From a virus, in the IMG/VR virus record IMGVR_UViG_3300048556_000098, positions 1 through 23,011 of that record: a stretch of DNA of 23,011 bases. One strand, written 5' to 3'. Positions 1,810-23,011 of this stretch are shown here, one piece after another (the first letter of the stretch is position 1; each line of letters opens with the position of its first letter). The notes under the pieces were generated by a model. It saw nothing but the letters and a program-made list of their open reading frames with translations, had not been told where the DNA came from and searched no databases. The position numbers were made by a program, and so were the translations under genes.

Positions 1810-2025
1810 GTGAAATCGAACACTAAAAGAAAGTATGTGTCGAGGGTGGATAAGCTATTACAAGCCAATGCCGCCCTCAACGCTTCTCTCGGTATAGATA
1901 GCACCAAAACCGAGATTGAATTCGTTAGAAAGCATATAAGAGCTAATATAAGAGCTATTAAGGAATTATGTCCATACACACATTCTATTATTGACATAGA
2001 TGATAATCATAAGACAACAAAATGA
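1810..2025 (+). CDS. Hypothetical protein (71 aa), GTG start
   Basis: A small, helical, basic protein of no recognised family. There is no ATG near the 5' end: either GTG at 1810 or TTG at 1804 could start it, and I prefer GTG. The body reads YVSRVDKLLQANAALNASL and FVRKHIRANIRAIKEL, two amphipathic helices, and the C-terminus is DIDDNHKTTK. Its stop overlaps the next ATG (ATGA), suggesting coupled translation. The opposite-strand ORF over this stretch is a shadow. It may be a small DNA- or protein-binding accessory factor, but nothing in the sequence proves that. Confidence 0.55.
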   Translation: MKSNTKRKYVSRVDKLLQANAALNASLGIDSTKTEIEFVRKHIRANIRAIKELCPYTHSIIDIDDNHKTTK

Positions 2026-2201
2026 ATTGGAATAGTAAACAAAAAGAACATACAAAGTTAGTCAAGATAGAAACCATAGCAACTGCTGAACATTGTAAGC
2101 ATTTAAAAAGCATAGGTCATTCTGTTGCAGACATTGCAGATAAGTTAAATTTAAGTAAGGCTAGGATTTATGAATACCTGAAGTACAAGGAGGTTGATTA
2201 A
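2022..2201 (+). CDS. 59-aa resolvase/sigma-type HTH protein
   Basis: A small ORF starting in ATGA overlap with the previous gene and ending just before an A-rich promoter. The protein begins MNWNSKQKEH and carries a clear HTH at residues 24-54: CKHLKSIGHSVADIADKL, then a recognition helix LSKARIYEYLKY. 'SVADIADKLNLSKARIYEYL' has the pattern of resolvase-type (HTH_7) domains, but no catalytic domain is present. It is probably a small DNA-binding regulator, and its placement directly before the promoter region at 2223 would suit autoregulation. Function is inference; the HTH is fairly clear. Confidence 0.7.
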   Translation: MNWNSKQKEHTKLVKIETIATAEHCKHLKSIGHSVADIADKLNLSKARIYEYLKYKEVD

Positions 2202-8272: not shown

Positions 8273-8383
8273 AATTTTAAAAGGGTATTTTATAACTAAG
8301 GGTTAGTTAAGGGTTGCTGAAGGGTACAAAGTAGCCTACATAATAAAGCTAAAGATAAAGCTAAGGTTAAAGCTATTTGTTTA
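8273..8383 (+). pseudogene. Relict of a replication-initiator linker (paralogue of 2408-3076)
   Basis: In one frame the DNA reads, with stops, YN-stop-GLVKGC-stop-RVQSSLHNKAKDKAKVKA. The intact initiator has YNLEGYMKGSQGVQSTLNNK followed by DKDKD and KVKAKVK. At the DNA level both share GGGTACAAAGTA (2760-2771 and 8324-8335) and a following AATAAAG...AAAGATAA...GCTAAGGT string. Two in-frame stops and a missing codon show that this copy no longer codes for the protein. It is the remnant of a duplicated or exchanged initiator gene, or of a recombination junction between related phages. Confidence 0.6.
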
Positions 8384-8407
8384 GTTTTAGTTTTTTAATT
8401 ATGTTTG
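8376..8407 (+). promoter_or_regulatory. Promoter for the terminase genes, -7 box 4 nt before ATG
   Basis: TTTG at 8376-8379 and TATGTTTG at 8400-8407 are spaced by 20 bp. The ATG at 8412 begins 4 nt after the box, where transcription itself is expected to start, so a leaderless mRNA is predicted. Confidence 0.72.
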
Positions 8408-10237: not shown

Positions 10238-10272
10238 CTGCGACAGATAACACATACTAATAATTAATTTTG
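10238..10272 (+). promoter_or_regulatory. Late promoter with CTGCGACAGATA element, no -33 box
   Basis: TAATTTTG at 10265-10272 is the -7 box, and the ATG at 10278 follows 5 nt later. There is no TTG or TTTG at the -33 position. Instead CTGCGACAGATA lies at 10238-10249, exactly 15 bp upstream of the -7 box. The same element at the same spacing precedes the prohead protease gene (22150-22184). Confidence 0.62.
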
Positions 10273-10277
10273 CAGAA

Positions 10278-10670
10278 ATGAATACTTTTAAGCATATAAA
10301 CAGCAAACACAACGCTTTGGTAAGCAAATACCTGACCTACATACAAAAGCAGGTCTATAACGCTACCGAAACCGCTAATGATGGTAAATACGATGATTTT
10401 CAAGACTTACTTGAAGATATTGTGTTGTATCACAATGATTTTGCCGATACGGGCTTAAATAAGGATAATTTAGAGGAATGGGCATTTGCTATCCCTAATT
10501 TAACAATGTTTACAGCATTAGGATTCTTTGCAGGATTAAGAAACGAAGAAAACGATGACACCATTGAGGATTGCGTAAGAAACGTATATAGTTCCACAAT
10601 GGATGTCGTAGGCAGTCTATCTGACCTAATGAAAGATGAAGAAGAAATAAAAGAAATGGAACAATGTTAA
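10278..10670 (+). CDS. Hypothetical virion- or late-region protein (130 aa)
   Basis: An acidic helical protein behind its own late promoter. It begins MNTFKHINSKHNALVSKYLT, contains DDFQDLLEDIVLYHNDFADT, and ends in a run of charged residues (KDEEEIKEMEQC). No family is recognised. It overlaps the next gene by 7 bp, linking it to the tail-assembly-chaperone-like genes. It could be an adaptor, a small tail factor or a late regulator; position alone cannot decide. Confidence 0.7.
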   Translation: MNTFKHINSKHNALVSKYLTYIQKQVYNATETANDGKYDDFQDLLEDIVLYHNDFADTGLNKDNLEEWAFAIPNLTMFTALGFFAGLRNEENDDTIEDCVRNVYSSTMDVVGSLSDLMKDEEEIKEMEQC

Positions 10671-11308
10671 CAATAGAGATAGAGGACAAAGAATATAATA
10701 TTCCTGACTCTTGGGAAGAGATGACACTAGACTATTATTGTGTAATACATTCAATAATATCAAAGTATCAGAAAACCCAAGAAGAAGAAGATAGTGAAAA
10801 TGATTTAACAAAATATTTCTTTCATCAAGAAAATAAGATGCACAAAGAGCTTTTTTGTTATATGACAGGATTAAGTTCCGAAAAAGTAAATAATATATCA
10901 ATGGATAGCATAAACTCTGTTTTAGGCTGCCTAGAAAGTATTATGAAAGATTATGAGCCTAAAGGTGTTGATTCTTTTAAGTTTGAAGGAGATATTTATT
11001 ATTTTCCAATAGACTTTCTTAGAACAGGAACTTTTGGCGACTACATAGAGAGTCAGCAGTTAGAAATGAATACTCAGTACCTAAAAAACGGAAGGTTTGA
11101 TGTTTTACCCGAACAAATGGCTATTTTATGTAAAAAAGTTGACGAAGATGTTGATTTAGACAATATTGATGAAAAGGCGAATAATTTTCGCAGATTAACA
11201 ATGGATATCGTTTGGGAGTTCAGTTTTTTTTTGAACAAGAAAACAATTCAATCACTAGGCGTTATCAAAACCTTTTCAGAGATGGTCAAACAAAAAGTAT
11301 TGCAGTAG
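10664..11308 (+). CDS. Tail assembly chaperone-like protein
   Basis: A 214-aa protein beginning MLTIEIEDKEYNIPDSWEEM. The 'I---W-E-T---Y' start is common to tail assembly chaperone-like proteins of siphoviruses. Residues 30-110 are acidic and helical, residues 105-150 look beta-rich (FKFEGDIYYFPIDFL), and the C-terminus has WEFSFFLNKKTIQS. A following ORF in the -1 frame overlaps its 3' end, and a run of nine T residues (11224-11232) lies in the overlap. This recalls the G/GT frameshift pair of lambda-like phages. The chaperone role is inferred from position before tail genes and this layout. Confidence 0.6.
   Translation: MLTIEIEDKEYNIPDSWEEMTLDYYCVIHSIISKYQKTQEEEDSENDLTKYFFHQENKMHKELFCYMTGLSSEKVNNISMDSINSVLGCLESIMKDYEPKGVDSFKFEGDIYYFPIDFLRTGTFGDYIESQQLEMNTQYLKNGRFDVLPEQMAILCKKVDEDVDLDNIDEKANNFRRLTMDIVWEFSFFLNKKTIQSLGVIKTFSEMVKQKVLQ
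11224..11232 (+). promoter_or_regulatory. T9 candidate -1 ribosomal frameshift site
   Basis: In the zero frame the tract reads AGT TTT TTT TTG, which contains the ideal slippery heptamer T-TTT-TTT. A -1 slip enters a frame that stays open to 11520, replacing the last 26 or so residues of the chaperone-like protein with a roughly 97-residue extension. Confidence 0.4.
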
Positions 11309-11325
11309 CGAAAGCAAGTAAGATA

Positions 11326-11520
11326 ATGAAGCCGTTTGGTTGGCTAAATACCTTATACGACCTATCGCTTGATGGAGTATTTACAAAAGATGGTAAAGAT
11401 GCTATGCAAAGTGTAAAAGATGAGAAGTTGTATAAAGTTATGACATACCTGTCTTGGAAAACTGCAAAAGGAGATTATGAACTAGCTGTTAATGAAGAGC
11501 AGCAGAAGCAAATAAAATAA
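11326..11520 (+). CDS. Small tail-region protein, or second half of a frameshifted chaperone
   Basis: From ATG 11326, 17 bp after the previous stop, a 64-aa protein starts MKPFGWLNTLYDLSLDGVFT and ends NEEQQKQIK. The same frame is open back to 11212, through the T9 tract, so it could be made as a C-terminal extension of the upstream protein. I have seen 'GWLN-LYDL---GVF ... V--Y-LSWKTA' proteins in tail modules of Bacteroidetes phages but cannot name the family. Independent translation from 11326 is the simpler reading. Its stop overlaps the next ATG (TAATG). Confidence 0.6.
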   Translation: MKPFGWLNTLYDLSLDGVFTKDGKDAMQSVKDEKLYKVMTYLSWKTAKGDYELAVNEEQQKQIK

Positions 11521-12695
11521 TGGGTTTTACTAAACTTAGAGAATTAAGAGATAGGTTTGAGCAACAATGGATAAATGGTGGCTTCATCTTTGGTTACGAG
11601 AATGAAATCAATGAGAATCACAACAATGACTATCCATTACTTGTTGTCTTACCACCAACATCAGAACTTCCTGCTACGGAAGGCGATGTGCAAGAGGAAT
11701 ACACTTTCGAGTGCCTAGTCGTTAAGCCATACTACCAAAACCAAGCAGGTTCGCTTGATGTCGTATTCAGCTTATTGGAGCAAGAAGCATTGACTTGGCT
11801 ACAAAGGGTGTTGGATAGCTACACAAACAAAGAGGTAATTTTAAGTCCTGACAGTATATCAGTTGAACGAGAAAAAGAACTATATAACGACAAGTTGATA
11901 CAGGTCAGGCTTACTTTTACTTTAAATGCGTTCTCTCACGACTTTACAAGGCTTGATGAAGCATTTGTTAAGGGATTGACACCTTTGCTTTGGTTAAAGG
12001 CTGATATGGGTGTTAAAACGGAGTTCTTTGGCGGTAATGAGGTTGTAAACAAATGGATTGACCAAAGTGGTAATGCAAATCACTTTGAACAAACAACATC
12101 AGCTAAGAAGCCTCTGTATAAGTACGAGATGTCATCCAACAGCTATCCTTATGTATTCTTTGATGGAACAAATGACTTCTTGGATTGTGTTAACGACTCC
12201 CTTGATGGAACTGCTGATGGTTTGAATAATGGACTATCTGTATTCTATGTAGCTAAGGGATATGATGGCTATGGTGGTTATGTGATAACTAAGAATTTAG
12301 ACAACGCAGCAAAAGCAAATTTCGCTGTTAGAATATCAACACAGGGTGGCAATCTTAATTGGAGAACTCAAGTGCAAGATAGCGATGACGATTTGTTAGA
12401 CTACATATATACATCAAACTCAGCAAATCAGGTTTCCGCTAATGGATTCACAAAGCATAAAACAAATCATAGCGTAAAGTCTTTTGAGAATGGCTCTTTG
12501 GTTGATGTTGAAACAAATCCTGACTTTGATGTTGAAGCATTACAAGACCTATACCCACTAAGACTAGGTGCTGCTAGAGATACCATTGGACACCTAAAAG
12601 TTGACATACAAGAGATTCTTATATTTGAAAAAGAACTTACTGTCGAAGAAGTTACAAAATTATCAGATTACTTAAAACATAAATACAATATATAA
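11520..12695 (+). CDS. Tail terminator-like domain fused to a LamG/concanavalin-like lectin domain
   Basis: A 391-aa two-domain protein. Residues 1-148 look like a tail completion/terminator fold: helix LRELRDRFEQQWINGGFIFG, strands YPLLVVLPPT and YTFECLVVKPYY, helix LLEQEALTWLQRVLDS, and a final strand LIQVRLTFTL. Residues 153-391 show the LamG/ConA-like pattern: LTPLLWLKADMGV, VNKWIDQSGNANHF, YPYVFFDGTNDFLD, and a late ILIFEKELTVEEVTKLSDYL. The LamG part probably binds carbohydrate and would be displayed on the virion. A terminator joined to a lectin is uncommon. It overlaps the next gene by one base (TAATG). Confidence 0.78.
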   Translation: MGFTKLRELRDRFEQQWINGGFIFGYENEINENHNNDYPLLVVLPPTSELPATEGDVQEEYTFECLVVKPYYQNQAGSLDVVFSLLEQEALTWLQRVLDSYTNKEVILSPDSISVEREKELYNDKLIQVRLTFTLNAFSHDFTRLDEAFVKGLTPLLWLKADMGVKTEFFGGNEVVNKWIDQSGNANHFEQTTSAKKPLYKYEMSSNSYPYVFFDGTNDFLDCVNDSLDGTADGLNNGLSVFYVAKGYDGYGGYVITKNLDNAAKANFAVRISTQGGNLNWRTQVQDSDDDLLDYIYTSNSANQVSANGFTKHKTNHSVKSFENGSLVDVETNPDFDVEALQDLYPLRLGAARDTIGHLKVDIQEILIFEKELTVEEVTKLSDYLKHKYNI

Positions 12696-14932
12696 TGCCT
12701 GATTTATTCATAGTTGACGAACCAAGAGAAACGATACAAAGTGTATATAGTCCAATAAAATATACAGCAAGGTATAATTTCGGCTCATCATATACACTTG
12801 CAGAAGCTAAAGCTAAATACCCTAGTTGTAGGGTAAGTATATATCCTAGAAATCCATACACAGGTGTTTTGGAAACAAGTAGAGGTGTTCAGATAAGACT
12901 TCAGCCTAGTATAGATATTCCTAATTGGGAAAGCGACCAAACACCAAACAACGACTATGTGTATTACACAATAGATGTTTCTAGCATAGCAAGAGATTTT
13001 GTTTCTTACGATTTAAGACCTTGTACTCACGATACATCAACTAAAGTTAAGAGAGATATAACAATGGGTCAAATCTCTAAAAATGTATTTGAAAGAATTA
13101 AAGTTCAGTTTCAGTTGGAGGAAATAAATTCTAGCGGTCAGTTAGTAGATGTATCAGGAGAAACGGACTTCGGAAACTTTATAGCTGTAAATTCAGCACT
13201 TCTACACGAAGAAGAACATTACCTTAGCATTTCAAATGAACTACTTACGGGTAGTGCAACTCAAGTACAGGGCGATAATCTATCAATACAATATTTGCAC
13301 AGAACAGGAACAGGATATGAAGCAGGAAGGCAAAAGTATTTGACAACAAAACCAACTAATTATAGAGTTATAGGTCACGATGAATGCGAATACTTGTCAT
13401 TCGCACTATTTGATTCAGGAACTTGCCCTAGAGCAGTAGTTCGTTTTTACGATGCAAATGGTAATGCTATACCAACATCAGATTCATCAAAAGGATATGT
13501 TCTTGTTATAAGTAAAACAACTGATGGAGAAGGTAACTTAGGAACTGACCTCAATAGTTGGGGAGATATGACAACATCAGATTTATCAGGACTTACTAAT
13601 CCCAATAACTGCGTGGTTCAGATTGGAGTAGGCACAAGAAATATAAAAGAATCGCCTGATGCTGAATGGAACAACGATGAGCCTTTAACTGACTTCTCAA
13701 ATGTATCATATTATACCGTTCAAACAGATGACACAGGCTCTCCTTCAGATAAGATAGGAGAAAAGGTAACTTACTACATTGACCACACAAGAGAAAGAGT
13801 TAATGGAGTTAGATTCCATTGGCAAAATAGATTAGGCGGTATTGATAGCTACACCTTTGATGGTGCATTTACAGAGGGAATAAACATATCTTCTAAATCA
13901 TACGAGCAAAGCATATATCCTGAGTTTAGAGGTCAATTAGGAAGTAGCACATCTAGTCCAAATGCTACGATAGGTGATAATAAAGGTTATCATTTTGCAT
14001 CGAGTAATTATGGTGCTGTTGTGCCTAGAGTTGCAGGTCTTACTGATGACAAATATCCATCGGTTAGAAAGTCAAAGGTAAAGGCTGTTAAAGAAGGAAC
14101 TGCTATATCAAGACCTTACGGAATTGCCGAACAAGATATGTTTGAGGATTTATTAGCTTCACCAAATGTATGGATAGAGAAAGGTTGGATAGGTAAAGAA
14201 GTGTTTAGAGAGGATTGGAGTGGCTATGCTGCTGTATCTAACATTACCGATAATTGGAATGTTGAAGATGGTGATTTTACTACTAACGGTTCTTTTGAAA
14301 CTGCCAAAGGTCACATAACAGGAACAAGATGTTATGAGAAGGGTGATAACTCAGGTGATGACACACTTTGGGCATCAAGTAAAAAGTTCATCAAGTACAA
14401 TCCAAAAAGCATATATGAAATTGAGGTTAGAATAAAAAGTGAACACGACAGCACAGGTGAAGAATATGTTGGTTTTACAGGTTATGCTGCCAACAAAACA
14501 ACTAAGATAAGCACAACAGGTGCTGACCAATTTGACAACGCACACTATGTTACTTTAAATGAGTATGACCAAACAGATGTAGATGAATGGAAAACATTTA
14601 GAGGTTATGTTACAGGACATTCTACAACTGCTGCTGTTCAGTCTAATAACGTAAATAACCCATCAACAGCATATACAGGTATTGAATTTATATCTCCAAT
14701 GTTTTTGTTAAATCACGATGATGCAGCGGGAGAGGTTCTTATAGACCACATTGTAGTAAGAGAGTATCAAACAGACATACCTAACTCTAAGGGTTGGTAC
14801 TCTACACTTAACAGAAACTACTATGTTCCTGTTGTTGTTAAGGATGCTAGTGTTACTACATTTGACAACGAGAACTTACAGAGATGTACTTTAAATTATA
14901 TAGAAAGCAAAGCTAAAAGAACAATAGAATAA
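12695..14932 (+). CDS. Large tail protein with inserted CBM-like jelly-roll domain
   Basis: A 745-aa virion protein. The N-terminal 130 residues form beta-rich modules (SVYSPIKYTARYNF, CRVSIYPRNP, IARDFVSYDLRPC), a start I associate with Bacteroidetes phage tail proteins. Residues 180-500 hold further beta domains. Residues 503-690 resemble a CBM4/9-like jelly roll: FREDWSGYAAVSNITDNWNV, IYEIEVRIKSEHD, EWKTFRGYVTGH and a terminal VLIDHIVVREYQ. The C-terminus returns to the tail fold (YYVPVVVKDASVTTFDNENL). It probably sits in the distal tail and contacts cell-surface glycans. Exact role (baseplate, spike or fibre) is not settled. Confidence 0.7.
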   Translation: MPDLFIVDEPRETIQSVYSPIKYTARYNFGSSYTLAEAKAKYPSCRVSIYPRNPYTGVLETSRGVQIRLQPSIDIPNWESDQTPNNDYVYYTIDVSSIARDFVSYDLRPCTHDTSTKVKRDITMGQISKNVFERIKVQFQLEEINSSGQLVDVSGETDFGNFIAVNSALLHEEEHYLSISNELLTGSATQVQGDNLSIQYLHRTGTGYEAGRQKYLTTKPTNYRVIGHDECEYLSFALFDSGTCPRAVVRFYDANGNAIPTSDSSKGYVLVISKTTDGEGNLGTDLNSWGDMTTSDLSGLTNPNNCVVQIGVGTRNIKESPDAEWNNDEPLTDFSNVSYYTVQTDDTGSPSDKIGEKVTYYIDHTRERVNGVRFHWQNRLGGIDSYTFDGAFTEGINISSKSYEQSIYPEFRGQLGSSTSSPNATIGDNKGYHFASSNYGAVVPRVAGLTDDKYPSVRKSKVKAVKEGTAISRPYGIAEQDMFEDLLASPNVWIEKGWIGKEVFREDWSGYAAVSNITDNWNVEDGDFTTNGSFETAKGHITGTRCYEKGDNSGDDTLWASSKKFIKYNPKSIYEIEVRIKSEHDSTGEEYVGFTGYAANKTTKISTTGADQFDNAHYVTLNEYDQTDVDEWKTFRGYVTGHSTTAAVQSNNVNNPSTAYTGIEFISPMFLLNHDDAAGEVLIDHIVVREYQTDIPNSKGWYSTLNRNYYVPVVVKDASVTTFDNENLQRCTLNYIESKAKRTIE

Positions 14933-17589
14933 TGGCAGAAATAAGAGTTGAGCTAAGAGATTTTACTGACAGCATATTAGGTAACCTTGATATTACATCA
15001 AGTGATGACTTTCCTTTGTCACTTAATTATCAAAACTTTGACGTAAGAGATTTTAATTCTCGTAATGGTAGTTTTAGTAAAACTTTTAAAGTTCCTGCTA
15101 CAAGAAACAATAACAGGCTTTTTAATCATATATACACAGATGGTCACGCTTTAGTTAAAGATGCTATAAAGCAAATACCATCTATAATATATTCTGACAA
15201 TATACCCATAATAGTTGGAAAGCTAAGGGTTACGCAGATAATAAAAGATACACGCATACAAGAGTATGAGTGTATATTTCTTGGTGACAATATGGATTGG
15301 GCAAACTCGATTAAAAACAAAGAGTTAAAAGAGTTGACTTTTAGCGACTCTCAAGGTTATATATTTGAAAATCCCCACGGATTTGATGGTAATAGTCCCA
15401 ATCAAAATGCTCACAGCTATCAAGATTTTTCTTCTACTATTGACAAGCTAGTTTATCCTTTACTTTCGGTAGGCGAAGGAGATAGCGTAAAAAATCAAGT
15501 TGTAGAGTCTGATTTTGTTCCTTGTGTTTACGTCAAGAATGTTTGGGACAAAATATTCCAAGCACAAGGATATTCGGTTACATCTACGTTCTGTGATAGC
15601 GATTTCTTTAAATCACTTGTAATGCCTTTGATATTTGAAAAAAATGCTGAGGTTTTCAATGATAAGTTTGGAAAGATATATAGAAATACAGATGAAAACC
15701 TAACCGATGAAGTGGCAGGAAATAGCTTTAGTGATGGAGATGGAGATGTAACTTTAAACAGAGCAGTTGGAAATCCAATCGTAAACATAGATGCTGACCC
15801 TGTTACTTATGACCACGATGGAGATGGCTCTAAAGATTATGGAAACGATACAGGCGGTGTGTTCTATGTATTTGGTGGTGATGAATTTACTGATGATGCA
15901 CCTTCAGATGGTGCTTTTAATAATGTAGCTGACGGAAATTCGGGTCTAAAAAGTTTGCTTGTTAAAAACTCTGAAGGAGAGTCAAATTTAGACTTTGATG
16001 TTTCAGTGAATGTTTTTAATAACAGTTCTTTTAGTGCGGGTTCAGACCCTAATATGGATATATACGTTCAGGCTTATGTTGCCAAAATATCAGACACAGA
16101 TGACGATGACTTATCACAGCTAAGAGATTCGGATAATATAATTTACGAAAGCTCATTAAGGTATATAACCATACATAAAAACGATAGTCCTGCTAGTATT
16201 GACTTAGGTAGTTTTAGTGAATCACTAACTGTTGATGATACCGTAGGTACAAAATATGTTTTTTATGTTAGATTTTATTTGCAAGATTATGCAGGAGAAA
16301 CAGTTCCTATTTTCGGAGGTGATGACAATGGTGATGTTGGTATAAAATACAAGTCAGGAAGTTATATCGAAATATCGGATGGCGATGAAATAGAAATAGG
16401 AACACAGATTCCTAGAATACATACATTGCTACCAAACGCAAAACAATCTGAATTTGTAAGTGGTATAGCTCAAATGTTTAATCTTCAGTTTGAAACAGAC
16501 AGCATAGCTAAGGAAATAAAAATAGAGCCTTACGACCATTTTTATGGCTCATTTACAAACGCTATTGATTGGACTGATAAGATAGATTATTCAAAAAACA
16601 TAACAGAAGAATTTTTGTATGACATAAAATCAAAAATAGTATTAAAGTACAAAGATGCTAGTAATGATGCTTTTCTTGAAAGATACAATAAAAAGAACTT
16701 TATAGATTGGGGTTCATACGAAGAAGTGGATGAGTCTGAAAGATTCTTGGAAGGAGAGTATGTTATTGAAAATAAATATTTTTCACCCACGTTTAACTAT
16801 CACGAGATAAAATATATTGACGAAACAACATTGAATTTAGCTACGGGTGTTGCCGCAACAGAGGACAACTACAATGCTGCATCTGCAATAGTTGCGCCAT
16901 TAATACCCATATACCACAAAGAATTTTCAGACCTATCAACTAAAGAAGATAGAGGAGAAAAAGAGTTTGATATAGGAGCTAGGATATTACTTCTACCTCC
17001 CGCAAATGGAGCTAACATACAATATAATAGTGACATAACTATAATGTTTAGTAGTGAGTTTGCACTTCCAACATCATATAGCTATGCTCCACTACCTAAT
17101 AACGATATGGATGCTGAAAGTAAGAATAACCCTAGATTTACTAGAGCTAACTTCATAAATATTGACAATTTTAAATGGAATGGCTCTACTCTTGACTTTG
17201 CCCAATTAAACAATGGATATGAAAATGTTGACTTAAACTTGTCTTTTGCAGATGTTAAGTACGATGTTCCTCAAGCATATGTTACAGGAGGGTTAAAGAC
17301 TATGAAAGGTCTTTACCATCACTATTATGAAAATATGTTTAAGCAATTAAAGCAAAAGCCAAGAATAAAAAAGATTTACCTAAACCTTAAAGATAAAGAC
17401 GTTTCTAACTTAGACTTTAAAAAACTTATATTTTTAGATGGTAATTATTACAGGTTAAATAAAATAGTTGACTATAAACCACATCTTAAAGATTCAACAA
17501 AGGTTGAGTTAACAGAATACTTTAAGTTGGGTGGTGATGCTGAAACAGTTGGAGAAACAATGAATATGGTAAACGGTATAGATTTATAA
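14932..17589 (+). CDS. Large tail/baseplate protein with calcium-loop-like motif
   Basis: An 885-aa virion protein. The N-terminus (IRVELRDFTDSILGNL, then RNGSFSKTFKVPATRNN and LFNHIY) is a pattern I recall from baseplate or tail-hub proteins of Bacteroidetes phages. Around residue 294, DHDGDGSKDYGND has the aspartate spacing of EF-hand or thrombospondin type-3 calcium loops. An acidic middle region (about 250-480) includes a beta-sandwich-like insertion. The C-terminal third contains PRIKKIYLNLKDKDVS and FLDGNYYRLNKIVDYKP, resembling the end of tail-hub proteins. It overlaps the neighbouring genes by one base each. Confidence 0.7.
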   Translation: MAEIRVELRDFTDSILGNLDITSSDDFPLSLNYQNFDVRDFNSRNGSFSKTFKVPATRNNNRLFNHIYTDGHALVKDAIKQIPSIIYSDNIPIIVGKLRVTQIIKDTRIQEYECIFLGDNMDWANSIKNKELKELTFSDSQGYIFENPHGFDGNSPNQNAHSYQDFSSTIDKLVYPLLSVGEGDSVKNQVVESDFVPCVYVKNVWDKIFQAQGYSVTSTFCDSDFFKSLVMPLIFEKNAEVFNDKFGKIYRNTDENLTDEVAGNSFSDGDGDVTLNRAVGNPIVNIDADPVTYDHDGDGSKDYGNDTGGVFYVFGGDEFTDDAPSDGAFNNVADGNSGLKSLLVKNSEGESNLDFDVSVNVFNNSSFSAGSDPNMDIYVQAYVAKISDTDDDDLSQLRDSDNIIYESSLRYITIHKNDSPASIDLGSFSESLTVDDTVGTKYVFYVRFYLQDYAGETVPIFGGDDNGDVGIKYKSGSYIEISDGDEIEIGTQIPRIHTLLPNAKQSEFVSGIAQMFNLQFETDSIAKEIKIEPYDHFYGSFTNAIDWTDKIDYSKNITEEFLYDIKSKIVLKYKDASNDAFLERYNKKNFIDWGSYEEVDESERFLEGEYVIENKYFSPTFNYHEIKYIDETTLNLATGVAATEDNYNAASAIVAPLIPIYHKEFSDLSTKEDRGEKEFDIGARILLLPPANGANIQYNSDITIMFSSEFALPTSYSYAPLPNNDMDAESKNNPRFTRANFINIDNFKWNGSTLDFAQLNNGYENVDLNLSFADVKYDVPQAYVTGGLKTMKGLYHHYYENMFKQLKQKPRIKKIYLNLKDKDVSNLDFKKLIFLDGNYYRLNKIVDYKPHLKDSTKVELTEYFKLGGDAETVGETMNMVNGIDL

Positions 17590-18512
17590 TGAGAAAGATA
17601 AGAACTAAACATAGAGATATTAGGGTAAAACCAAAGAATGTTGGTTATCAGCTTTACTGCACCATAGATGGTGTATTGACACCTGTTGTGTATAAAAACA
17701 AAGACATAAACGATGTAGAGTTTTATGAAGAAGTTAGCATAACTAAGAGAAGAAGATTAAGTAGGCAAAAATCTTTACAGAATACTAGAAGTTTTAACAT
17801 CCCTGTTATACAAGATTCCACCGTTATAAACCCTTTATTTGTTTTTAATTACAATAGCGGAATAAAAGAGGTTACTAGCGGAAACAATCTTAAAACTTGG
17901 AACTCATCCATAGGTACTAATCAGCTTACTATGCCTGTAACAGCTACGCAACCCGATATTGGTCTTAAAGGAAATGGTATAGAAGGAATTTCTCCTATTT
18001 ATTTCAACTACGACAACTCAGACTATATGATTTTTAGTAGTGGTGTAACTCTTACGGGAGATTTTACAATATTTATGTATGTAGAGCCAATACCATTAAT
18101 TCCAAAAGTGCATAAGAAGCATAGGTTTTTAGGCAAGAGTGATGATAACGATATGTATTTTTCAATAGGAGAATCAGGAAACACATCTTACACTTTAAGT
18201 TTTTCATCTATCAGTAAGGTTCAGGTTTCTATAACACCTGAGTATTGGCAGCCTAGTAGTAAAAAGATATTGATAACATTACAAAGAAGTGGAACTACTT
18301 TATATATAAGAGAGAATGGTGTGCAAGTGGCTAGTGAAACTGTGCCTACAACAGACTTAGCTTTTAATCAGTTTGGAATAATAGGTGGATTAACATCAGA
18401 CACTTACAACGGTTCACTATATCACGCATCTGCTTACGATGGATATATAACAACTGAACTAGCTTCGTTAGAAAGAGCTATCATTAAAAAAGCATCATTG
18501 GCAAAAGGATAA
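17589..18512 (+). CDS. Tail protein with second LamG-like lectin domain
   Basis: A 307-aa protein. The first 80 residues are basic and form a short anchor (KIRTKHRDIRVKPKNVGYQL, later SITKRRRLSRQKS). Residues 85-307 follow the LamG/ConA-like layout: VIQDSTVINPLFVFNYNSGI, NLKTWNSSIGTNQL, YNDYMI-like strand at DNSDYMIFSSG, TGDFTIFMYVEP, and the end YNGSLYHASAYDGYITTELA followed by the C-terminal helix. It is the second lectin-like domain of the tail module, diverged from the one at 11520. It probably contributes to adsorption. It is joined tightly to its neighbours. Confidence 0.7.
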   Translation: MRKIRTKHRDIRVKPKNVGYQLYCTIDGVLTPVVYKNKDINDVEFYEEVSITKRRRLSRQKSLQNTRSFNIPVIQDSTVINPLFVFNYNSGIKEVTSGNNLKTWNSSIGTNQLTMPVTATQPDIGLKGNGIEGISPIYFNYDNSDYMIFSSGVTLTGDFTIFMYVEPIPLIPKVHKKHRFLGKSDDNDMYFSIGESGNTSYTLSFSSISKVQVSITPEYWQPSSKKILITLQRSGTTLYIRENGVQVASETVPTTDLAFNQFGIIGGLTSDTYNGSLYHASAYDGYITTELASLERAIIKKASLAKG

Positions 18513-18513
18513 T

Positions 18514-19041
18514 ATGGCAGAGATTAGTTTAAAGCAGATGAGAAGTATTCTTCGAGATATTGGAGATGATTTAGTAGATGGTATAAGAGGTGAGTTAAGC
18601 AGACAAGGACACAACAACACAGGAACTCTTTCTGATAGTATTAGGTATGAGATAGAAGAGTTTGGAGGTAATATGTCTTTACTTGTTATAGCAGACGATG
18701 TTGAGTATGCTCAATATGTAAATGAAGGGTTTTTTCCTAACTCACTACCAAATATGGATGCCATACAGGAGTGGGTTAATGAAAGAGGTATAACTCCTAG
18801 TAGTCAAAAAATGAAAAACTCTAAAGACCCTCAAAGAGCGTTAGCCTTTGCAATAGCTAAGGCAATGATGAGTGAAGGTTCTCCTACAAGTGGTGCTTTT
18901 AAATATTCAAGCAATAGAAAGAGAAGAGGTTTTGTTAATAGACCCTTTGGCTCAAGAAAAAGAGGTATAGAAAGAAAAATAGTAGATGGTATGTCTGTTG
19001 AAATAGATATATCTATGGATTCAATAATTAAAAAAGCATAA
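18514..19041 (+). CDS. HK97 gp10-like tail completion protein
   Basis: A 175-aa protein with the HK97 gp10-like pattern: helix LRDIGDDLVDGIRGELS, then GTLSDSIRYEIEEFGG, LLVIADDVEYAQYVNEG, and a second helix RALAFAIAKAMMS. The C-terminal third is basic (NRKRRGFVNRPFGSRKRG). Such proteins act at the head-tail connector or tail end in siphoviruses. In most phages this gene lies near the head-tail connector genes; here it lies directly before the tape measure gene, sharing one base with it. Confidence 0.75.
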   Translation: MAEISLKQMRSILRDIGDDLVDGIRGELSRQGHNNTGTLSDSIRYEIEEFGGNMSLLVIADDVEYAQYVNEGFFPNSLPNMDAIQEWVNERGITPSSQKMKNSKDPQRALAFAIAKAMMSEGSPTSGAFKYSSNRKRRGFVNRPFGSRKRGIERKIVDGMSVEIDISMDSIIKKA

Positions 19042-21809
19042 TGGCAAAAAAGGTAAATACTTTAATTGAGGTTACTATAAAGGGTAACGACAAGCTAATA
19101 GCATTAAGAAAAGAAGTAGAGCTCTACTCTAAAAATCTTAAAGACTTAAAGAAAGAAAATAAAGATGTAAAAAACATTAGCGATGAAACTGCTCGTGCTT
19201 TTGCAGAACAAGAAACAAGTCTTAAAAAAGCTAGGAGAGAATATGGTAACGCTCAGAAAGAACTAAAAGGATTTAGCGAAACCACAAAGAAGTCAACAGG
19301 ATTTGTTACTAAAATGGCTAAAAGCTTTGGTCTTGCTCAGATTGGAGCTACTCTGTTTATGAGAGCTATGAATGCGGTAAGACAGGCTGTGTTAAATGCT
19401 GTAAATACTATTTCTGACTTTGACTTTCAAATGGCTAAGGTAAAAGCGATAACGGGAGCAAACGCTAAGGAATTTGCTAAGTTAGAGTCGTCTGCAATGA
19501 GATTGGGTAGGACAACTTTCTTTACGGCTACACAGGTGGCTGAAATGCAAGAATCCTTGTCAAGGCTAGGTTTTACTACAACAGAGGTTGTTGCTGCTCA
19601 AGAAGCTATATTAGAGTTATCTACCGCAATGAGTTCTGACTTAGGAAGAACAGCTACCATTGTTGCTGCTGCCATAAGAGGTTTTGGTGCTGATGCGAAC
19701 CAAACACAAAGGTTTGTTGATGTTATGGGTAAGTCTTTCACAAGTTCTGCGCTAGACCTTGAAAAGTTTCAAACGTCAATGACTAAAGTTTCAGCTATTG
19801 CTGCTGACTCAGGATTTACTTTTGAGGAAACAACATCTATGTTGGGATTGCTAACAGACAGAGGTATTGAAGCGTCTATTGCAGGTACATCTTTGCGTAA
19901 CATACTTCTTAAAATGCAAGACCCTACGTCTGACCTTTCTAGGAGATTAGGTCAAACCGTTCACTCAGGAGAAGATTTTATAAAGGCTCTAAGAACATTA
20001 AAATTAGAGGGTACTGAAATGGCTGATGTAATGGGGATTGTTAATATTAGACAGGCTAACGCATTTACAGCTTTCATAAATAGTGCCGATGCTTTGGAGC
20101 TTTTCAACACAAGACTAGAACAGGCTAATGGCTCAACGGGAGAAATGGCTGAAATTATGGAGGACACCCTAAAGGGTTCTATAAACAAAGCTAAGTCAGC
20201 TTGGGAAGGATTTATACTGTCATTGGATAGTGGGAGAGGAACTGTTGCCACAACACTAAGAGGTGTTTATGGTGCTGCTACATATTGGCTAAATAGGTGG
20301 GCAGACCAAATGGCTACAACAAGTCAAACCGCAGAAGGTATTGTTGATAGTCAATTAAAAACTGCTCAATATCAAATATCGGAAACATCAAGGCTTTACG
20401 GAGAAGAGGCTGCGGGAACTTTGTCAACTCAACTAAAGATTCAATCTGAAGATTTAAAAAAGTCTTTAGAGGGTATGCAGAAAGAGTATGAAAGGCAGTT
20501 GGAAATATCTGAAAATGCTAATTTTGGAATAGCTAGAGAAAATGCTAGAGAAGAAGCTGAAAGACTCAAAAAAAGAATTCAATCTTATCAAATAGCCACT
20601 CAAGAGATTATAAGAATGTCTGAGGAGGAAGCTAAAAAAGAAGAAGTTAATCAAAAGAAAAGAGAGCAGGATAGATTGAATGAGTTGGCAAGACAAAAAG
20701 ACTTGATAGCAATACAGGAAGATTTGTTAGACCAAGCTAAACTTATGCCTCAAACAACAGAGGCTGAGATTACTGCAAAGAATAAAAAGATTGCTGTAAT
20801 TGAAACTGAAATATCAAGATTAAAAGCCTTAGGAAAAGAACAAAAGAAAACAACAGGCAAGACTGAATCACCTATTGCTGATGATTTTAGTGGTCAGGCA
20901 GAAAAGATAGCTAAACAAAGATTCTCTATTATAGAGCAAGAGATGTTTGATAAGGAGCAAGTTCTTAGACAGCAATATATTGATGGAACTATTTCTACTG
21001 AAGATATGTTAAATCAAAAGATTTTTGAAATGAAAACTAAACACCTTCAAGATTCTTTAGTTCAAGAGCAAGGGTTCTTAGATAGTATGTTTAGTGCTAA
21101 TGAAATTGTATCAAACGCTCTCATAGAACTAAAGCATAAGGAAAAGTCAGCCACAGAAAAATCTCAGATTGCTAAGGATAAAGCAACTCAAGATGAAATA
21201 CAAAATATAATACTTCACTCAGCAACAGCTCAAGAAGCTTTTTCTCAAATAATATCAATGAAAATTAATGAGATATTATTAGATGCTATGGGTTCTCTTT
21301 GGGGAGATAAGACAATACCGTTTTTAGCTAAAGTAGGATTGGCTATCGGAATGAAATCATTAGTAACACCTCTAATAAACAGTCTTCTTGGTGGCGGTGG
21401 AGGACAAGCCACAGGAGAAACTGTTAGCGGTGAAGATACATTTGCTAACGGAGGACTTACAAGAGGTGGTATGTTTCAAGGCAACTCACACGCTAATGGC
21501 GGTGTTAAATTTAGAGTTGGTGGTAGAATACACGAAGCTGAAGGTGGTGAAGCAATTATCAACAAGAAATCAACAAGTATGTTTAGGCCTGTACTATCAG
21601 CTATCAATAGCTACAATGGTAATGGTGTAAAGTTTGCTGATGGTGGTTTACTCAATAGTGGAGAGAAGTTTGCTATGGGTGGAGAGCTAAGGTCAGCACA
21701 ACAATTAATAAGTGGAGGAGTGGGAACTTCTAAGGTTGTAATCGTAGAAAGTGATATGACAGAAGTGCAGAATAGAATATCTGCTATTGAAAGTCAGGCT
21801 ACTTTTTAG
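19041..21809 (+). CDS. Tail tape measure protein
   Basis: A 922-aa protein, the longest here. Residues 1-90 are a coiled coil (LRKEVELYSKNLKDLKKENK). Residues 92-123 contain a hydrophobic helix (IGATLFMRAMNAVRQAV). Residues 135-390 match the TP901-type tape measure core (MQESLSRLGFTTTEVVAAQE, RTATIVAAAIRGFGADANQT, GIEASIAGTSLRNILLKMQD). Residues 440-700 form long coiled coils. The C-terminus is glycine-rich with FANGGLTRGGM, HANGGVKFRVGG and EGGEAIINK, typical for the family. It sets tail length and is ejected during infection. A 922-residue protein would predict a tail of very roughly 140 nm by the usual 1.5 Å per residue rule. Confidence 0.93.
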   Translation: MAKKVNTLIEVTIKGNDKLIALRKEVELYSKNLKDLKKENKDVKNISDETARAFAEQETSLKKARREYGNAQKELKGFSETTKKSTGFVTKMAKSFGLAQIGATLFMRAMNAVRQAVLNAVNTISDFDFQMAKVKAITGANAKEFAKLESSAMRLGRTTFFTATQVAEMQESLSRLGFTTTEVVAAQEAILELSTAMSSDLGRTATIVAAAIRGFGADANQTQRFVDVMGKSFTSSALDLEKFQTSMTKVSAIAADSGFTFEETTSMLGLLTDRGIEASIAGTSLRNILLKMQDPTSDLSRRLGQTVHSGEDFIKALRTLKLEGTEMADVMGIVNIRQANAFTAFINSADALELFNTRLEQANGSTGEMAEIMEDTLKGSINKAKSAWEGFILSLDSGRGTVATTLRGVYGAATYWLNRWADQMATTSQTAEGIVDSQLKTAQYQISETSRLYGEEAAGTLSTQLKIQSEDLKKSLEGMQKEYERQLEISENANFGIARENAREEAERLKKRIQSYQIATQEIIRMSEEEAKKEEVNQKKREQDRLNELARQKDLIAIQEDLLDQAKLMPQTTEAEITAKNKKIAVIETEISRLKALGKEQKKTTGKTESPIADDFSGQAEKIAKQRFSIIEQEMFDKEQVLRQQYIDGTISTEDMLNQKIFEMKTKHLQDSLVQEQGFLDSMFSANEIVSNALIELKHKEKSATEKSQIAKDKATQDEIQNIILHSATAQEAFSQIISMKINEILLDAMGSLWGDKTIPFLAKVGLAIGMKSLVTPLINSLLGGGGGQATGETVSGEDTFANGGLTRGGMFQGNSHANGGVKFRVGGRIHEAEGGEAIINKKSTSMFRPVLSAINSYNGNGVKFADGGLLNSGEKFAMGGELRSAQQLISGGVGTSKVVIVESDMTEVQNRISAIESQATF

Positions 21810-21817
21810 TATATTTG
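21787..21817 (+). promoter_or_regulatory. Promoter between tape measure and regulator genes, -7 box 3 nt before ATG
   Basis: TTG at 21787-21789 (-33) and TATATTTG at 21810-21817 (-7) have a 20-bp spacer. The -7 box begins immediately after the tape measure stop codon and the ATG at 21821 follows 3 nt after it, so a leaderless transcript is expected. Confidence 0.72.
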
Positions 21818-21820
21818 CGT

Positions 21821-22138
21821 ATGATAAGACAGAATAGTGCCGATATTGTTGATGAGTTCATAGAACTTATATACAATGAAGTTAAGGTGCGATACTCTGA
21901 GGAAGCAGGAATAAAGAATGTCCTAAACCATCTATCAGAGAAAGGTCTTATCGAGCCAAGAAAGCTAAGAGATTATATGATAATAAGAGATTTTGACAAG
22001 GTGTTGGAATCTAACAATGGTAACTACACATTTACATATATGGACATATCCATTAAGTACGATGTATCAGAAAGAACCATTCAGAATATTATGTATAAGC
22101 ACAAGCGTAAATTCAACAAGGACTACAATATTAGGTGA
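21821..22138 (+). CDS. Small HTH-like protein, possible late regulator
   Basis: A 105-aa protein. I chose ATG 21821 over the TTG at 21815, which lies inside the promoter box. The N-terminal half is helical (ADIVDEFIELIYNEVKVRYS), followed by KNVLNHLSEKGLIEPRKL. The C-terminal part has an HTH-like segment: FTYMDISIKYDVSERTIQNI, then MYKHKRKF, where 'SERTIQNIMYKHKRKF' looks like a recognition helix. It sits alone between tail and head genes with its own promoter, and directly before the CTGCGA-type promoter of the protease gene. It is a good candidate for a late regulator; this is inference. Confidence 0.68.
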   Translation: MIRQNSADIVDEFIELIYNEVKVRYSEEAGIKNVLNHLSEKGLIEPRKLRDYMIIRDFDKVLESNNGNYTFTYMDISIKYDVSERTIQNIMYKHKRKFNKDYNIR

Positions 22139-22149
22139 TTGCCTCATTT

Positions 22150-22184
22150 CTGCGAAAGATATGATACATTAATTATTAAATTTG
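22150..22184 (+). promoter_or_regulatory. Late promoter with CTGCGAAAGATA element, no -33 box
   Basis: CTGCGAAAGATA at 22150-22161 is followed after exactly 15 bp by TAAATTTG at 22177-22184, and the ATG at 22189 comes 4 nt later. No TTG or TTTG is found at -33. The layout is the same as that of the promoter at 10238-10272. Confidence 0.65.
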
Positions 22185-22188
22185 CAAA

Positions 22189-23011
22189 ATGAACAAATGG
22201 TATTCAATAGAAAACAAAGCAGATAATAACGTAGAAATATCTATCTATGATGAGATAGGTGACTACGGAACATCTGCTAAAAACTTTATAGAGGAAGTTA
22301 AAGCTGTTGGAACTGCTGACATCACATTACGCATCAACTCAGTTGGTGGTAGTGTATTTGATGGTTTAGCTATTTACAATACTTTACGTTCTCACAATGG
22401 GTATGTAAACATAAAGATTGAAGGCTTGGCTGCTTCTATATCTACTGTCATAGCAATGGCAGGGGATAACATAGAGATGTCAGAAAACGGATTCTTTATG
22501 ATTCATAACCCATTTGGACAATCGGCAGGAGAAGCAGGAGATATGCGTAAAACTGCTGACTTACTTGACAAAATTAAGAATGAGATTATTGAGATATATT
22601 CTAAGAAGTCTAGCCTAACGACTAAACAACTTTCGGATATGATGGATAAAGAAACTTGGTTATCAAGTGAAGAAGCAATGGAATATGGATTTGTAGATAC
22701 AATTACTGCTCCTATGAAAGTTGCTGCATCTTTTGACCTTTCTAAATTTACTAATGTGAACGAGAAAGAGGTCAATGATAAATTGAAATTAAATAATAAT
22801 AATAAATCAATTAAAATGACTGAAGAATTAAAAACTTGGTTCAACGGTGTTAAAGAAGAAATCTTAAACGCTGTAAAAGGAGAGAATGTTTCTACTCCTG
22901 CTGAAGAAGTTTCTGTTTCTATTTCTGACAATGAGGTTATCGTTAATAAGCTAGAAGAACTAGAAGAAAACGCTAACTCTTTGCGTGAAGAAAAAGAAGA
23001 ATTAGCAGGTC
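22189..23011 (+). CDS. ClpP-type prohead protease, probably with embedded scaffold, 3' partial
   Basis: The frame is open to the right edge (274 residues visible). Residues 15-180 match phage ClpP-like head maturation proteases: ITLRINSVGGSVFDGLAIYN, EGLAASISTVIAMAG with nucleophile S83, FFMIHNPFG with H106, and ETWLSSEEAMEYGFVD, where E155 sits at the place of the ClpP aspartate. After a low-complexity LKLNNNNKSIK linker comes a helical, acidic region from M210 (TEELKTWFNGVKEEI ... LEELEENANSLREEKEELAG) that looks like a scaffolding protein. An internal ATG at 22816 has an A-rich leader. Portal and capsid genes are expected just outside the window. Confidence 0.9.
   Translation, partial: MNKWYSIENKADNNVEISIYDEIGDYGTSAKNFIEEVKAVGTADITLRINSVGGSVFDGLAIYNTLRSHNGYVNIKIEGLAASISTVIAMAGDNIEMSENGFFMIHNPFGQSAGEAGDMRKTADLLDKIKNEIIEIYSKKSSLTTKQLSDMMDKETWLSSEEAMEYGFVDTITAPMKVAASFDLSKFTNVNEKEVNDKLKLNNNNKSIKMTEELKTWFNGVKEEILNAVKGENVSTPAEEVSVSISDNEVIVNKLEELEENANSLREEKEELAG
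22816..23011 (+). CDS. Candidate in-frame internal scaffold protein, 3' partial
   Basis: ATG 22816 (residue 210 of the protease frame) is preceded by AATAATAATAATAAATCAAT-type A-rich DNA like the other translation starts in this genome. The product from here is purely helical and acidic (KTWFNGVKEEILNAVKGE, then NKLEELEENANSLREE). In lambda, Nu3 is made in the same way from an internal start in the protease gene C. It runs off the window. Confidence 0.45.
   Translation, partial: MTEELKTWFNGVKEEILNAVKGENVSTPAEEVSVSISDNEVIVNKLEELEENANSLREEKEELAG

Follow-up and report, generated by a model that had tools for sequence, protein, structure and literature searches.

A position-fixed element at two structural-gene promoters of a phage family diverges with a candidate phage activator

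Promoters of the Bacteroidetes primary sigma factor combine a -33 TTTG motif with a -7 box, TAnnTTTG (PMC6847099, PMC7366714). How might a phage switch on its virion genes from promoters that keep this box and have no -33 TTG? The question is raised by two promoters 12 kb apart in a viral record of 23,011 bases, the whole of which we analysed (the window). The record is probably a fragment, because close relatives reach 34-36 kb, and a DNA similarity search with it found no match among known phages. The nearest cultured terminases come from Croceibacter phages (44%) and from those of Chryseobacterium and Cellulophaga, one sewage phage ranking between them; a marine member of Flavobacteriia is therefore the likely host, and the phage family is likely to be an uncultured marine one. 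In genomes of the Genome Taxonomy Database (GTDB), the terminase has one distant match (35%). Here we describe a conserved pair of sites, fixed in position and present in two copies per genome, that diverges together with a phage protein of 105 amino acids encoded at 21821-22138. On the sequence evidence, the shared element is probably the site of this helix-turn-helix (HTH) protein, which would act as a phage-coded activator driving both structural operons.

Two promoters share an upstream element

Element A (CTGCGACAGATA, 10238-10249) and element B (CTGCGAAAGATA, 22150-22161), both on the plus strand, are each separated by a 15-nt spacer from a box of the host type. At promoter A, the box (TAATTTTG, 10265-10272, plus strand) stands 5 nt before the ATG of open reading frame (ORF) 10278 (10278-10670, plus strand; 130 aa, no family match), the first of the genes that run through that of the tape measure protein and make up the tail operon. 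At promoter B, the box (TAAATTTG, 22177-22184, plus strand) stands 4 nt before the ATG at 22189 of a gene for a ClpP-like head maturation protease (22189-23011, plus strand; PHROG 133, E = 4.5e-76; Pfam CLP_protease, E = 5.4e-36), which runs off the contig end. In a relative (G015), the protease gene is followed by genes that we read, on gene order and sequence, as capsid, portal and adaptors. Elements, spacers, boxes and start codons lie exactly where an earlier note on this DNA had placed them. Its statement that neither promoter has a -33 TTG also stands, with none found 16-24 nt upstream of either box (a -33 TTG is expected at about 19-21 nt).

By the box numbering of Flavobacterium johnsoniae (T-12 A-11 T-8 T-7 T-6 G-5; PMC6847099), the elements would cover -39 to -28 of the tail-operon and head-operon promoters, and transcription would start at, or within one base of, the A of the ATG, the start position being assumed from F. 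johnsoniae spacing. Within the clade of the window, both sites have TAnnTTTG 4-5 nt before this expected start. Leaderless mRNAs are rare in Bacteroidetes (5.5% in F. psychrophilum; PMC9723704).

Four promoters with a box before an ATG were found in the window, and in each the box is 3 to 5 nt from the ATG. The two without the element have the canonical TTG-N20-box arrangement, whereas the two with it have no TTG at 16-24 nt. One canonical promoter (21787-21817, plus strand; TTG at 21787-21789, N20, TATATTTG at 21810-21817) ends 3 nt before the ATG of ORF 21821 and is kept in relatives, although it overlaps the end of the tape measure coding region. The other (8377-8407, plus strand; TTG, N20, TATGTTTG) lies 4 nt before the ATG of ORF 8412, the upstream partner of the terminase gene, and serves as an element-free comparison. 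By itself, the absence of a -33 TTG carries little weight, because the -33 motif is hardly visible in F. johnsoniae promoters (PMC6847099).

The two 12-mers agree at 11 of 12 bases. The earlier note had stressed this agreement at identical spacing, and it proves to be unique: the window has 46 TAnnTTTG matches on its two strands, and no other pair of them reaches it, the next best pair at the same offset agreeing at 9.

The element pair is conserved in relatives

We scanned the viral-contig collection for CTGCGAMAGATA-N{5,25}-TAnnTTTG, with the other spacings as control. A spacing of 15 gave at least 59 matches (a count that includes the window itself and overlapping loci), against at most 9 for each other spacing among the matches listed; every listed match at spacing 15 precedes an ortholog of ORF 10278 or of the 22189 protease gene. 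A relaxed search of 12 clade records for TGCGA-Nd-TTTG peaked at d = 25, with 25 matches against no more than 10 at other values of d. Promoters A and B account for 24 of these 25, exactly two per record in 12/12 records, so that the TGCGA core heads the tail operon and the protease-capsid-portal operon throughout; the remaining match, in G008, has no ATG after it. In the clade genomes, even the ones of 34-36 kb (G001, G008, G015), no third promoter of the element type was found. The earlier note had named a lack of copies in relatives as evidence against it; instead, both sites are present at the fixed spacing in every clade record. There are only two copies per genome, and the 12-mer is specific to the clade.

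To avoid circularity, B sites were also collected by protein similarity rather than through the element. In the resulting 23 distinct sites, TGCGAA (-38 to -33), TT (-41, -40) and the box TAA.TTTG are all invariant, and the element holds 1.61 bits per position compared with 1.06 upstream of -44. One B site (L173) has the element a base nearer the box (spacer 14), reflecting either misassembly or natural variation in spacing.

Chance, or a recent non-functional duplication, could also leave two similar sites, and the spacers of A and B do agree at 10/15 bases. However, base composition predicts only about 0.007 pairs agreeing at 11/12, and across the 23 distinct B sites the flanks vary around an unchanging core. 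There is also a fixed difference between the sites, TGCGAC at A and TGCGAA at B, in 12/12 clade records, which speaks against mere copying from one to the other. Conservation thus already contradicts this explanation, to which we give next to no probability.

The two sites diverge together across lineages

Beyond the clade it is the position that is more widely kept, and the core varies from lineage to lineage. In records whose ORF 21821 protein is 55-60% identical, the core has changed and its distance from the box has not. The outside-clade A cores are TGCGAAAC, TGCGTAAT, TGCTGTAT, TTCTAATG and TGCACTAA, and the B cores TTCGCAAA, TTCGTATA, TTCCTATC, TTCTAAAG and TTCACAAT. In these records, T[GT]CG-N26-TTTG-n2-5-ATG gave 28 matches compared with at most 13 at other spacings. 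A and B have only part of the core in common here, and the box at A is often without TA at -12/-11. The idea of one identical element at A and B in every lineage was rejected, since the two differ outside the clade.

The sites of one genome nonetheless resemble each other more than they resemble those of other lineages. Across ten hand-picked lineages, identity over the 6-base core averaged 4.3 for own A-B pairs versus 3.6 for cross pairs (permutation P = 0.003), and identity over a 14-base element 7.6 versus 6.4 (P = 0.007); as the genomes are related, these and the following P values are optimistic. With a 10-base core window, P was 0.07 for the ten lineages and 0.009 for a set of 17 distinct pairs. 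The spacer also has some own-pair effect (P = 0.02), and none was found upstream of the elements (P = 0.5). One genome (G039) has GAAA for GATA in both elements.

A shared element at a fixed distance from the host box is therefore found at several promoters of one phage family. Among cultured phages, Cellulophaga phage phi17:1 has two box-ATG layouts, both without the element, and Croceibacter phage P2559Y has no such layout.

The element tracks ORF 21821

Which phage gene, if any, changes with the element? We correlated pairwise protein identity with element identity for 37 genes, 25 from the window and 12 from the rest of the G015 genome. The 12-base window for element identity was that set by the original finding. 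The comparison used 18 dereplicated genomes, after dropping those in which both elements were identical and ORF 21821 identity was 96% or more; for G035 and G036, the B sites were taken manually from the protein-similarity set.

ORF 21821 predicted element identity best at A and at B alike (r = 0.74 for each), and its C-terminal HTH half (0.75/0.76) did slightly better than its N-terminal half (0.67/0.65). Genes lying close to the sites did worse: r was 0.38/0.48 for the terminase, whose gene is 71 bp from the ATG that follows site A, 0.45/0.59 for ORF 10278 behind A, 0.26/0.28 for the tape measure protein that adjoins ORF 21821, and 0.15/0.28 for the gene read as capsid. ORF 17589 reached 0.73 at A and a lower 0.60 at B. 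In bootstraps, ORF 21821 beat each other window gene in 90-100% of cases. With the mean divergence of the other window genes removed, it kept a partial r of 0.52/0.49, which none of 5,000 permutations reached. Of eight other genes treated in this way, none exceeded 0.2 at B, and only ORF 17589 was high at A (0.48). Because the genomes are related, the comparison of gene with gene is a stronger argument than the P values.

Mosaic genomes point the same way. Compared with the window, G001 has a terminase identical at 100% and ORF 21821 at 99%, and ORFs 14932-19041, between the sites, at only 30-64%. In G046-G048, the terminase is 85-86% and the tape measure protein 39-42% identical, ORF 21821 is 98-99% identical and both elements are exact. 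The elements thus follow ORF 21821, and neither the genes around A nor those between the sites, across a distance of 12 kb between ORF 21821 and site A with strong mosaicism in between. That the element changes in step with ORF 21821 across relatives suggests that its protein switches on virion production, and lends support to the earlier note's choice of this protein as candidate binder. Separately, the divergence of 14932-19041 from G001 has the look of a whole-module exchange of tail genes.

Another phage regulator might instead read the element, ORF 21821 merely travelling along. Of two such HTH-like ORFs, 828 is nearly as good a predictor at B (r = 0.46 at A, 0.69 at B), 5664 gives 0.41/0.51, and both are present in the clade genomes that cover them. 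We consider this quite unlikely: on the same genomes both are weaker (bootstraps favour ORF 21821 at 0.94 and 0.97, respectively), and in G035, ORF 828 is only 55% identical, as outside the clade, yet both sites keep the clade core.

The site could also belong to the host, as the target of some host factor or of an alternative sigma factor, with no phage activator involved. The position, -39 to -28, would fit an upstream sigma contact (PMC6847099), and the lineages may infect different hosts. This would leave unexplained why a phage HTH gene predicts both sites best and its neighbouring phage genes do not; moreover, the TAnnTTTG box that the promoters retain belongs to the primary sigma factor, and we regard the host-factor explanation as very improbable.

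ORF 21821 encodes a putative helix-turn-helix regulator

The proposed activator gene (21821-22138, plus strand) follows the tape measure gene by only 11 bp, at the tail operon's end, and stands directly before site B in 18/18 first-set relatives that cover the region. AlphaFold2, run with 19 sequences, predicted an all-helical protein (pLDDT 77) in which helices 69-80 and 84-99 form a C-terminal HTH. Relatives of the protein are encoded in 362 viral contigs; searches found none in 50,697 phage records and none in 84,980 bacterial and archaeal (GTDB) genomes. A fold search returned only generic HTH and homeodomain matches (best viral match A0A1B1IQL3, E = 1.1e-3), a sequence search of solved structures nothing significant, and comparison with known activators no significant match.

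Membership in the Mu Mor/C family was considered and not upheld. PHROG 836, 'late transcriptional activator', matches 11/19 family members weakly (best E = 0.0047), and it matches Mu Mor and C, but it also gives matches in 14/14 control genomes and is thus unspecific. Direct profile comparison by hhalign gave a probability of 0.85% (E = 0.065), and Pfam Mor did not match ORF 21821. A second small HTH-like protein in the window (2022-2201, 59 aa) matches PHROG 836 too. As a general reader of the element it was rejected: it is absent, unless missed, from clade records G015, G034, G035 and G036, of which G034 lacks much of the region.

The sign of the effect is a separate matter. ORF 21821 protein could bind the element and repress or delay both structural operons, and the linked divergence matches protein to site without giving the direction of control. 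We hold repression to be possible but unlikely. The element-bearing promoters have no -33 TTG and the two element-free ones do, which fits a need for help, and the lack of any ORF 21821 relative in the bacterial and archaeal genomes gives no sign of a resident, repressed prophage.

Proposed mechanism and comparison with known systems

We favour activation, as follows. ORF 21821 protein would be made first, from its own host-type promoter, as expected for a regulator made before its targets. It would then bind DNA around -39 to -28 in the two promoters that have the -7 box of the host primary sigma factor and no -33 TTG, and recruit host RNA polymerase to two presumably late operons, one of tail genes from 10278 onward and one of head genes for protease, capsid and portal. 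Both transcripts would start at or beside the AUG and be nearly leaderless. Promoter A would also feed its own activator gene, because ORF 21821 ends the tail operon.

The closest parallels are those of better-known phages. In T4 middle promoters (MotA/AsiA, sigma appropriation), a phage element likewise takes the place of the host's upstream contact, at a fixed distance from a retained -10/-7 box. The MotA box is centred at -30 with a TGCTT core (PMC2988021), whereas the host box here is TAnnTTTG and the element centre lies near -33.5; the genes are structural rather than middle, and each genome has two sites where T4 has nearly 60. MotA has a double wing with beta strands, unlike the predicted all-helical ORF 21821 protein, and was not among the structure matches listed for it. 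Phage Mu has Mor and C, small HTH proteins that activate late operons whose promoters have poor upstream elements (PMC4461284). The protein size and motif, the late operons and the poor upstream promoter elements are alike, with activation proposed here; the sigma factor and the site differ, and the direct profile comparison was non-significant. The ORF 21821 system would thus work like T4 MotA or Mu C, and our tests gave no grounds for placing the protein in either family. Bacteroidetes primary sigma promoters (PMC6847099, PMC7366714) have the same -7 box at the same distance from the expected start; here, a conserved foreign element replaces the -33 TTG, and the start would lie at or beside the AUG.

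The earlier note knew of no late-promoter class of this type in Bacteroidetes phages, and in the open-access literature we likewise found none, nor any account of a phage-coded late-gene activator in these phages. We lean towards an undescribed family of late activators that substitutes for the -33 contact made by the Bacteroidetes primary sigma factor, its specificity shifting by lineage together with both promoters and its head and tail mRNAs nearly leaderless. If so, several hundred viral contigs would carry a one-protein, two-promoter switch acting on the phylum's unusual sigma factor. They would offer a natural series of matched protein and site variants in which the protein's DNA-reading code is directly testable, and the system could give an inducible promoter for flavobacterial genetics.

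Further observations

Three smaller features were noted. Downstream of the terminase in L020-L024 and L026-L030, most records have a five-codon frame, ATGGATAATAATATATAA, directly after the A-site box and before the next real gene, a possible leaderless mini-cistron. The A site of L020 (2202-2260; also L026 and L030) has a perfect inverted repeat, TATTTTC-AA-GAAAATA, in the element region, perhaps the mark of a dimeric binder in that lineage. The 142-aa protein encoded at 1051-1479 of the window carries the C-terminal DNA-binding domain of DnaA (Pfam Bac_DnaA_C, E = 1.7e-19) and is possibly a binder of the phage replication origin.
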